A stretch of 64,000 nt of DNA from Streptomyces sp. NRRL F-5630 (GTDB lineage Bacteria > Actinomycetota > Actinomycetes > Streptomycetales > Streptomycetaceae), in contig NZ_JOGO01000018.1 of the NCBI RefSeq assembly GCF_000719475.1, forward strand, positions 1-64,000. The letters run 5' to 3'. Position numbers and translations under genes: made by a program. Below are positions 36,419 to 39,605 of this stretch, one piece after another (the stretch's first letter is position 1; each line of letters opens with the position of its first letter). Under the pieces are notes generated by a model. It did not search any database. It was not told where the DNA came from and was given only the letters and a program-made list of their open reading frames with translations.

Positions 36419-37933
36419 TCACTCCGGAGCCCCGGGCGGCACGAAGGGCAGTCCCGGCGGAGCCCCCCGCTCGATCAGCCGCAGCAGCGCCCCCGTGTCG
36501 GCGTGCTCCTCGACGAGGTCGGCGAGCGCCTCCAGTTGCTCCTCCCGCAAGGCCCCGAACTCCGTGTCGGGCGCCGGTACGAACCTCCGCCCGGCCTGCG
36601 CGGCGATCCGCCGCAGGAAGGCCCGCCGGAACCCGTCGCTCTCCAGGGACCCGTGCCAGTGCGTCCCCCACACCGCGCCCACCCGGCACCCGTCGAGGAA
36701 CGGCTCGTCGCCGCCCCGCACCTCCGCGACCCCGTGGTGGATCTCGTACCCGTCGACGGCCTCCCCGAGCGCGGTCCCCGAGGGCCGGGCGAGCGTCTTC
36801 TCGCGCGCGAACCGGACCCGCACCGGCAGCAGCCCGAGCCCCGGCACGGTCCCCGCCCGCGACTCCACCTCGTCCTCGATGACCTCCCCCAGCAACTGGA
36901 ACCCGCCGCAGACGCCCAGCACGGGCCGCCCCTCGGCCGCCCGCAGGGCGAGCGCGTCGGCGAGCCCCCGCTCCCGCAGCCACGCGAGCGCCCGCACCGT
37001 GCCGCGCGTACCGGGCACCACGACGAGGTCCGCGTCCACGAGGTCCTGCGCCCGGTCCACGAACCGCACGACGACGCCCGGTTCGGCGGCGAGCGCGTCG
37101 ACGTCGGTGAAGTTCGACAGGAGCGGCACGGCGCACACGGCGACCCGCAGCACCTCGTCCCCGTGCGGCTCCGCGAGCCGCGACTCGCGCACCGCGCCGC
37201 GCAGCGAGACGGCCATGCCGTCCTCCTCGTCGATGCCGAGCCCCGGCCGGAACGGCAGCACCCCGAAGGTGTCGCGCCCCGTCAGGTCCCGCAGCATCCG
37301 CAGGCCCGGGGCGAGCAGCGAGACGTCCCCCCGGAACTTGTTGACGAGGTACCCGGCGACGAGCGCCTGGTCCTCGGCCGAGAGCAGCGCCGTCGTCCCG
37401 AAGAACGACGCGAAGACACCGCCCCGGTCGATGTCGCCGACGACCACGACGGGCAGCCGGGCCGCCCGCGCGATCCCCATGTTGACGAGATCGGTGCGGC
37501 GCAGATTGATCTCCGCCGGACTCCCCGCCCCCTCGCAGATCACCGCGTCGTACGTGCGCCGCAGCTCGGCCAGGCAGTCCACGACCGTCCCGAACAGCTC
37601 CGCCTGCTTCCCCCCGTGGTACCCGCGCGCGCTCAGCTCGCCGAGCGGCTTCCCGAGCAGCACGACCTGGCTCGACCGCTCCCCGCCCGGCTTGAGCAGC
37701 ACCGGGTTCATGAGCGCGCTCGGCTCGACGCGCGCGGCCCGCGCCTGCATCGCCTGCGCGCGGCCGATCTCGGCGCCGTCGCGCGTGACGAAGGAGTTGA
37801 GGGACATGTTCTGCCCCTTGAACGGCGCGACGCTCACCCCCCGCCGCGCGAGCCACCGGCAGATCCCGGCCGTGACGACACTCTTCCCGGCGTCGGACGT
37901 CGTCCCGGCGACGAGCAGCCCGCCCCCGGTCAC
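36419..37933 (-). CDS. cobQ: cobyric acid synthase CobQ
   Basis: 504 residues. Amidates b, d, e and g carboxylates of adenosylcobyrinic diamide. N-terminal dethiobiotin-synthetase-like domain ([32 protein letters not shown]) and C-terminal glutamine amidotransferase domain with [14 protein letters not shown] (Cys) and THWHGSLE (His). The GTG at 37933 overlaps the cbiB stop (GTGA), so translation is coupled to cbiB; an in-frame extension further upstream would lie wholly within cbiB. Confidence 0.95.
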
Positions 37934-38877
37934 CGCGCACGCCCCGGGACCGCGAGCCGCACCGCGACGCACACCCCGAGCGCCGCCCACGTCACGCGCC
38001 GCGAAAGCCGCACGGCCCGCTCCACGTCGGTCACGGCGACGGACCGCCCGCGCCGCGCGTTGAGCACGGGCCGGTGCTCGACGCGGCCCGCGTACGACAG
38101 CGTCCCGCCGAGCCGTACGCCGAGCGCGCCCGCGAAGGCCGCCTCGACCGGTCCCGCGTTGGGACTCGGGTGCCGGTGCGCGTCCTCGCGCACCGCGGCG
38201 CGCGCGCGACGGGGCGCGCCGCCCACGAGCGCGGCGAGCGCGGCGGTGAGGCGGGCGCCGGGGAAGCCCATGACGTCGTCGAGCCGCGCGGCGGACCAGC
38301 CGAACCGCAGGTAGCGCTCCGATCTGTGGCCCACCATCGCGTCGAGCGTGTTGACGGCCCGGAAGGCGACGAGCCCGGGCACCCCGCCGAGCGCGCCCCA
38401 CACGAGCGCCCCGACGACCGCGTCCGAGGTGTTCTCGGCGACGGACTCGACGACGGCGCGCGCGATCCCGTCCGCGTCCAGGTGGCGCGGATCGCGCCCG
38501 CACAGGTGCGGCAGGCGCTCGCGCGCGGCGGCCACGTCGCCCGCTTCGAGCGCGGCGGCGAGCACGCGCCCCTCGCGCGCGAGCGAGGTGCCGCCCACGA
38601 CGGTCCAGGTCACGAGCGCGGTGAGCGCGGCGGACGCGGCGGGGGAGCGGCGCGCGGCGGTACGGGAGACGGCGGCGGCGAGGGCGGTGGCGCCACCCGC
38701 GCACAGCAGGGTGTGGAGGGCGCCCGCGCCCCGGTGGTCGCGCCACAGCGCCTTCTCGGCGAGGCCCGCGAGGCGCCCGAACACCGCCACGGGGTGGCCA
38801 CGGCGCGGGTCGCCGAAGAGGGAGTCGCCGAGCAGGCCGGCGGTGGCGCCGACCGCGAGAACACGTCCGGCGGCCAT
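37930..38877 (-). CDS. cbiB: adenosylcobinamide-phosphate synthase CbiB/CobD
   Basis: 315-residue integral membrane protein attaching aminopropanol (phosphate) to cobyric acid. Family motifs: [20 protein letters not shown] at the N-terminus, [36 protein letters not shown] and [20 protein letters not shown]. First structural gene after the cobalamin riboswitch. The ATG at 38877 lacks its own ribosome-binding site and starts 4 nt after a short leader ORF, suggesting translational coupling. Confidence 0.94.
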
Positions 38878-38881
38878 GACG

Positions 38882-38953
38882 TCAGTCCGCCGTCACGCCT
38901 CGCCGGGGGAGCGGGCGGGCTGGCGGGTGCGCACTGCGGCGGATGCCGGGCAT
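38882..38953 (-). CDS. 23-residue leader ORF between riboswitch and cbiB
   Basis: ATG at 38953 is preceded by GAGTAGGA with 7 nt spacing, the only good ribosome-binding site between the aptamer and cbiB. The peptide starts MPGIRRSAHPPARPLPRR and is Arg/Pro-rich. TGA (38884-38882) is 4 nt before the cbiB ATG in a different frame. Ribosomes terminating here could re-initiate on cbiB, so the riboswitch may act by hiding this leader's ribosome-binding site. The peptide sequence itself may be irrelevant. Confidence 0.55.
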   Translation of the reverse strand: MPGIRRSAHPPARPLPRRGVTAD

Positions 38954-38974
38954 GGGGGTGTCCTACTCTCAGGG

Positions 38975-39110
38975 TCCGCGCCCTGGTACGACGTGGTTCG
39001 GCGCCGGGAGTTCCTGACTCACGGGGATCACTCCCCGCTCACAGTGGCGGGACCGCGCCGGATTCGCACCGGTACTTCCTCCACAGCCGCCGAAATGGCC
39101 CCGGCAGTGC
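38975..39110 (-). promoter_or_regulatory. cobalamin riboswitch
   Basis: On the minus strand the conserved cobalamin aptamer core is clear: GGTGCGAATCCGGCGCGGTC, then CCCGCCACTGTGA containing the B12 box, a GGGGA-GTGA-TCCCC hairpin, and GAGTCAGGAACTC. The order and spacing match known adenosylcobalamin aptamers. It lies about 100 nt upstream of cbiB and should repress the cbiB-cobQ-chelatase-cobO block when cobalamin is plentiful. Ends are approximate. Confidence 0.95.
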
Positions 39111-39329
39111 ATCACGCTGCGAGACCGGGCGTCAACTCGCACTTGACGCAAGAGGGGCGAATCGGTCGGGCCCGGGCTCCCGGCTCCCGCGCCCCCTTCG
39201 CCCCTCCCACCTCGTACGAAGCCCGTCGCCCCCGCCGAAGCCGCACGCCGCCCACGCGCAAGCGCCCCCATGCGAAAGCCCCGCGCCGCCCCCCTCGGGG
39301 GCCTCGCGGGGCTCGTGGCGCCGGTCCGC

Positions 39330-39605
39330 TCAGGCCACGATCACGTAGATCCCGAACGCCACCGCGGCGAGGCACACCCCGAAGCAGGTGTACGCGCCGA
39401 GCCGGTGGAGCAGCGCCCGCCCGCTCGTCGCCGCGTCGCCGCCGGTACCGGCAGCGGTGACCGTACCGGTGCCGCCGTCCCGCGCCGTCGCGGCCGAGGC
39501 GCGCGAGAGGCCCGCGATGCCGAGGGCGAAGGCGCCGACGAGGCCCACGGTGACGAGCAGGCTCACGCCGAAGACGGAGCCGAGTGCCGCCCAGCCGATG
39601 TTCAT
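39330..39605 (-). CDS. small membrane protein of the pit operon
   Basis: 91 residues, with two transmembrane helices (SVFGVSLLVTVGLVGAFALGI and YTCFGVCLAAVAFGIYVIVA) around a Gly/Thr/Ala-rich loop. AAAGGA precedes the ATG at 39605, 11 nt after the phosphate transporter stop. Similar small proteins commonly follow pit genes in streptomycetes; an accessory role in the transporter is inferred. Confidence 0.85.
   Translation of the reverse strand: MNIGWAALGSVFGVSLLVTVGLVGAFALGIAGLSRASAATARDGGTGTVTAAGTGGDAATSGRALLHRLGAYTCFGVCLAAVAFGIYVIVA

Follow-up and report, generated by a model that had tools for sequence, protein, structure and literature searches.

When a cobalamin riboswitch is separated from a biosynthetic gene by a short open reading frame (ORF), which start codon does the switch control, and how does the gene behind the ORF come to be expressed? 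This question is raised by the minus strand of a 64,000-nucleotide stretch of DNA from Streptomyces sp. NRRL F-5630 (hereafter, the window), on which a TTGACG element, a cobalamin aptamer, a hairpin (P13), an AGGA motif, a 23-codon ORF, four bases, cbiB, and cobQ follow one another in this order. The leader ORF (positions 38882 to 38953; 23 codons plus UGA) encodes MPGIRRSAHPPARPLPRRGVTAD and is followed by CGTC and then by the cbiB ATG at 38877. The products of cbiB (cobD; adenosylcobinamide-phosphate synthase; 37930 to 38877) and cobQ (cobyric acid synthase; 36419 to 37933) were identified by scores exceeding the NCBIfam cut-offs (TIGR00380 and NF002276 for CbiB, in addition to 294.8 bits against PF03186; 577.7 bits against NF001989, with a cut-off of 273, for CobQ), and the GTG of cobQ overlaps the TGA of cbiB as GTGA. 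The first-pass annotation had described the leader ORF, with its UGA four bases ahead of the cbiB AUG, as well as the GTGA overlap; the former was confirmed, and the latter was verified by reading the sequence. Farther along, there are genes for a putative cobaltochelatase and a cobO-type adenosyltransferase, each also above its NCBIfam cut-off. The nearest best segments came from Streptomyces sp. SPB074 (94%; residues 88 to 315) and SID11385 (92%; residues 1 to 64), which places the genome with Streptomyces.

A switch that acts through a short ORF has been described for ppe2 of Mycobacterium tuberculosis. According to the available portions of that report (Kipkorir et al. 2024, PMC11260477), a B12 switch controls the upstream ORF uPPE2, on which the main gene depends. 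The relay was demonstrated with reporters and operates mainly by termination-reinitiation; a tight overlap was of importance there, and expression fell when the stop came early. The account is repeated in a 2025 review (PMC12713380, likewise available in part).

Leader data set

CbiB was present in 85 of 100 genomes, including that of the window, at an E value of 1e-20, and a pattern combining P13 with the ribosome site occurred in 370 of the 392 genomes of the genus. The leader sample is non-random, in that it comprises relatives of the window and listed matches of the motif pattern, with the 22 of 392 genus genomes that do not carry the pattern lying outside it. From 168 loci (L007 to L174), we removed L044 (no gene start), L040 and L084 (masked), 18 loci with no motif near the cbiB match (L039, L041, L043, and L069 to L083; L083, i.e., G047, is of the same genus), and 4 copies among the remaining 147, which left 143 distinct leaders with cbiB. 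Additional pattern matches (L175, L176, L180, L183, L202, and L203) were judged by reading to be non-B12 leaders and were rejected.

A compact cobalamin riboswitch upstream of the leader ORF

The aptamer (38989 to 39120, minus strand) was assigned to the cobalamin riboswitch family by its covariance-model score (RF00174; cmscan, 44.3 bits; gathering score, 31.5; E = 6.6e-9). It had been called a canonical B12 aptamer on the minus strand; the family and strand hold, but the aptamer is canonical only in part, because 9 bases replace 60 model positions and the P8-P12 arm is therefore missing. With its GGAAG and without this arm, it matches the compact ppe2-type form carrying a GGAA motif. By analogy with its riboswitch family, the window aptamer is assumed to bind cobalamin and to act as an OFF switch. 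An Rfam hit was obtained in each of the 9 leaders that were run out of the 143 (other loci were run besides). Orthologous leaders differ in the P8-P12 arm, which is long in L021, L029, L061, L085, and L163 and missing in the window and in L007, L008, L046, and L051. Since some relatives keep the long arm, its loss does not define the whole leader set, and the two forms, as far as their sequences tell, represent a natural series of aptamer shrinkage.

Hairpin P13 (38970 to 38985; CAGGG paired with CCCUG) has the loop CGCGGA, whose GGA(C) matches GGUCC of loop L5 (39050 to 39054), the presumed other half of a kissing-loop contact. L5 is >95% conserved in the alignment of the 143 leaders and identical in the 103 leaders in which its pattern was found; being invariant wherever it was extracted, it gives no information on covariation with L13. 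The second stem pair of P13 is A-U in 141 and G-U in 2 of the 143 cbiB leaders, and it is G-C in 26 of 26 leaders of cobN and cobI, although the C was demanded by the search pattern in every one of the 26 and the G in 13 of them, which leaves only 13 of these G's as free observations. This A-U/G-U/G-C series between cbiB and cobN/cobI leaders supports the predicted P13. Under free folding, P13 was within the minimum-energy structure in only 58 of 120 leaders, and whole-leader folding is uninformative in such GC-rich RNA. We also considered and rejected a candidate pairing of the conserved first codons of the leader ORF with the 5' side of the aptamer (mean of -17.94 for own pairs and -18.25 for randomly re-paired ones).

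Ahead of the aptamer lies a promoter-like element (39106 to 39135, minus strand) consisting of TTGACG (39135 to 39130), an 18-base spacer, and TGCACT (39111 to 39106). TTGAC was found in 141 of the 141 leaders with a detectable GGAAG mark (of 143), against a background of 4.7% per 90 bases, and its distance to the aptamer GGAAG is 54 to 58 bases. In 134 of these 141 leaders, TNGACT follows 17 to 18 bases after TTGAC; the window sequence, TGCACT, deviates from it. We regard the element as a likely promoter, which extends into the 5' edge of the aptamer as matched by Rfam; a standard sigma-70 scan of 38800 to 39400 returned no promoter. A cobalamin riboswitch ahead of cobD-cobQ-cobN in S. lividans, with the same first two genes and of the same Rfam family, is listed in a table of cis elements validated by transcriptome sequencing (RNA-seq) (PMC8079986, available in part). 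It is therefore transcribed, which speaks against a transcription start downstream of the aptamer in that species; a leader ORF is not mentioned in the available part of that paper.

Placement of the leader stop codon at the cbiB start

The 143 leaders were of two kinds: a separate leader ORF is present in 123, and in the other 20, cbiB itself begins at the riboswitch start codon, which identifies this start codon as the output of the switch. In 120 of the 123 leader-ORF loci (119 in the first tally plus L150), including every one with an assigned start, the script placed the leader stop -11 to +7 bases from the cbiB start. In the other two frames, the first stop fell inside this interval in 0 and 5 of 120 loci, and the proportion for shuffled sequence was 5.1%. 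The stop is thus placed at the cbiB start more often than by chance. Among the 119 loci tallied, the stop codon was always TGA, and the gap to cbiB was 4 bases in 76, 3 in 27, and 5 in 11; a stop-start overlap of any kind occurred in 3 of 120 loci (L059, L094, and L150). Of the three loci that failed by script, L095 shows a 3-base gap on visual inspection, and L171 would fit were its second ATG the start; the frame of L143 is broken, and this locus clusters with the direct forms, although it was scripted into the leader-ORF class. In contrast to the stop, the ORF itself varies, with 20 lengths between 17 and 50 codons in 120 leaders and 34 start-to-start distances covering all three residues modulo 3. 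Because length, middle sequence, and frame vary, it is the geometry that is kept rather than the peptide. This agrees with the prediction, made from the window alone, that start, stop, and spacing would be conserved across leaders while the peptide would not.

These observations are probably best explained by riboswitch-gated initiation at the leader ORF followed by termination-reinitiation at cbiB. The element would sense B12 and act as an OFF riboswitch, with the start codon immediately 3' of P13 as its output. With cobalamin bound, an L5-L13 kissing contact would fix P13 beside the AGGA and keep 30S subunits from loading on the leader ORF. In the absence of cobalamin, ribosomes would translate the 23-codon ORF, stop at the UGA four bases ahead of the cbiB AUG, and reinitiate on cbiB, with cobQ following via the GTGA overlap. 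The leader peptide would be a coupling device and not a product.

The frame relationships also bear on whether readthrough or frameshifting at the leader stop might yield a leader-CbiB fusion as the main product. Natural in-frame fusions (L029, L051, L055, L056, L062, L063, and others) indicate that an extended N terminus is tolerated, and a fusion was observed for ppe2, but only as a minor product, according to the available text (PMC11260477). Only 28 of the 120 leader ORFs share the cbiB frame, and the window ORF, which does not, would need a frameshift. We consider a fusion as the main product very improbable.

Ribosome sites at the two start codons

Termination-reinitiation would rely on ribosomes loaded at the leader start. 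The leader ATG is preceded by a 4-base match of the AGGA or GAGG type in 120 of 120 leaders; in the window, the AGGA (38961 to 38964, minus strand; sequence reading and 16S pairing) follows P13 and lies 7 bases ahead of the ATG. Pairing was computed with an assumed core 16S tail sequence, and start-like triplets inside cbiB served as the null. By this core measure, 119 of 120 leaders pair more strongly at the leader start than at the cbiB start, with medians of -7.3 and -2.8, respectively, the latter being equal to the null. By a wider measure (longer tail and wider region), the leader start was stronger in 108 of 120 leaders and equal in 4 (medians of -7.7 for the leader, -4.9 for cbiB, and -4.7 for the null). 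In the window, the two starts tie, both by the core measure (-5.1 for the leader, with AGGA; -5.0 for cbiB, with GGA) and by the wider one (-5.1 and -5.2). The initial claims that the leader carries the only good ribosome-binding site and that cbiB has none of its own are therefore borne out by the cross-species comparison and not by the window alone.

The tie in the window is what would be expected if cbiB initiated alone and the leader ORF served to keep ribosomes on the leader (e.g., excluding Rho), such that the link to the switch ran via the RNA level and not via reinitiation. Across species, however, pairing at cbiB does not exceed the null by the core measure. A leader ORF that served for protection from Rho would not have to end as close to cbiB as it does in 120 of 123 loci, and in the available portions of the ppe2 report, a stop-codon series argued against Rho as the cause (PMC11260477). 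A precedent for an RNA-level link is the cobalamin riboswitch of S. griseus with premature termination ahead of another gene, SGR_RS05925 (PMC8914203, available in part), but no intrinsic terminator was found in 38800 to 39400. This alternative is thus unlikely in our estimation.

In the window, a hairpin (38867 to 38906, minus strand; -26.1 kcal/mol; z of -2.1 against base shuffles) was predicted whose loop contains the leader stop and whose 3' arm contains the cbiB AUG (unpaired probability of the AUG, 0.0), and a ribosome arriving at the leader stop would open it. A similar hairpin was predicted in the near relative L042 (-26.8; unpaired probability of the AUG, 0.0). Such a hairpin at the cbiB start does not characterize the set as a whole (median z of 0.03 over 120 leaders). 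In local folds of the 120 leaders, the median freeness of the AUG was 0.54 for cbiB versus 0.44 for the leader, which counts against the proposed relay, though the stretch ahead of the AUG was less free at cbiB (0.43) than at the leader (0.54).

Leader peptide

A different role for the ORF would be that its peptide itself acts, through stalling or as a regulator. Its first codons are conserved (G at codon 3 in 102 and C at codon 4 in 80 of 120 leaders), and its last residues are mostly T-A-G (T in 69, A in 76, and G in 89 of 120). Over 34 disjoint close pairs, point estimates of pN/pS were 0.74 for the leader frame itself, 1.08 and 1.20 for the two alternative frames, and 0.26 for cbiB. The last four codons, however, have a pN/pS of 1.05 and are thus conserved as nucleotides and not as amino acids. 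An acting peptide is also difficult to reconcile with lengths of 17 to 50 codons, a variable middle, frame changes, and the 20 leaders that do without the ORF. No TTA codon occurs in the 120 leader ORFs, and no single-amino-acid run was seen by reading the window peptide. The leader ORF does not exhibit the GC pattern by codon position seen in cbiB. An acting peptide is therefore improbable. The sequence comparison fits a coupling device whose peptide has a weak function or none, while the conserved first codons and the pN/pS point estimate below 1 leave room for a mild peptide role.

Comparison with known systems

Like the ppe2 switch as described in the available portions of its report (PMC11260477), the window switch is compact, has no P8-P12 arm, carries GGAA at J3/4, and has a predicted L5-L13 pairing. 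In both systems, the ribosome site lies on the short upstream ORF; there is no obvious site at the main gene of ppe2, whereas the two sites tie in the window. Both have a UGA stop at the main start, with termination-reinitiation demonstrated for ppe2 and proposed here. Unlike the AUGA overlap of ppe2, the gap is 3 to 5 bases in 114 of 119 cbiB leaders and 4 bases in the window, without overlap; given the importance of a tight overlap in ppe2, this difference weighs against the proposed relay. The ribosome site of ppe2 is partly masked in the L13 hairpin, and here it is just 3' of the hairpin. The controlled gene also differs (cbiB versus ppe2), and here the relay is found in most of the leaders examined, with some relatives lacking it. 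Since the cbiB system would work in the same way but differs in the overlap, we regard it as a variant of the ppe2 relay. The available parts of four Streptomyces transcriptome papers (PMC8079986, PMC8914203, PMC8780764, and PMC8269248) do not mention a relay, and among the matches listed in a search covering titles and the beginnings of abstracts, with most subscription journals outside its scope, there was no paper on such a Streptomyces relay.

Relay and direct forms at cbiB, cobN, and cobI

Relay and direct forms coexist among the cbiB leaders. In some direct forms, the usual cbiB start is at the ribosome site (L046, L047, L049, L050, L053, L054, L064, L109, and L110); in others, MPGR-like first codons are fused in frame (L055, L056, L062, L063, L151, L152, and L159) or the make is different (L012, L029, L051, and L158). 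On a quick CbiB tree (FastTree) of 4 outgroups and 136 of the 143 leaders, there were at least 58 changes of start-to-start distance and at least 19 of frame, yet the leader stop remained next to the start of cbiB. The relay/direct class changed 7 times, of which the starred (well-supported) branches force only 3. All 7 members of the earliest-branching group and 14 of the 15 members of the next group have a leader ORF; the direct form therefore looks derived within the genus, more than once. In other genera of the family, the relay is found in L193, L195, and L196 and the direct form in L194 and L197 (none of the five is on the tree).

A second compact cobalamin switch in the same genome (G000:C72:25354-25473; L005 and L182) shares the compact aptamer, P13, and start-codon position with the window switch and leads straight into a cobN-like gene without a relay. 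We read 24 cobN-type leaders, 22 of the same genus and 2 of other genera in the family. Of these, 21 are direct; the remaining 3, namely, L200 (another genus) and L205 and L206 (same genus, identical letters), carry a leader ORF that overlaps the gene as GTGA or ATGA. CobN is the best NCBIfam match of L200 and L205, with scores below the cut-offs, since the available sequences cover just the first 328 and 350 residues; the other 22 leaders were assigned to cobN by the first residues that they share. A leader ORF behind the switch overlaps the start of cobI in two genomes of another genus in the family (L198 and L199; TIGR01467 above cut-off). The window genome also has a sub-threshold cobalamin match (26.5 bits; G000:C14:78044-78198; L006) ahead of a gene for a short membrane protein, which we take to be CbtB-like.

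Biological implications

The class changes on the tree and the relays at some cobN and cobI switches, with stop-start overlaps of their own, raise the possibility, which we put forward tentatively, that, in the family to which this genome belongs, the start codon of the riboswitch serves as a modular output port, plugged either straight into a gene or into a disposable relay ORF, with lineages swapping the two repeatedly. If so, the relay would free the start region for shaping by the RNA switch and allow the N terminus of the enzyme to evolve freely. In the literature surveyed, which was available in part, one riboswitch had previously been shown to act via a relay ORF; such relays could then be a general, overlooked mode of translational riboswitches. 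For genome annotation, this means that a translational riboswitch may be followed first by a start codon that belongs to an ORF other than the annotated gene. Given that most of the Streptomyces leaders examined keep the relay and that some species are naturally without it, the question is directly testable in these harmless soil bacteria.
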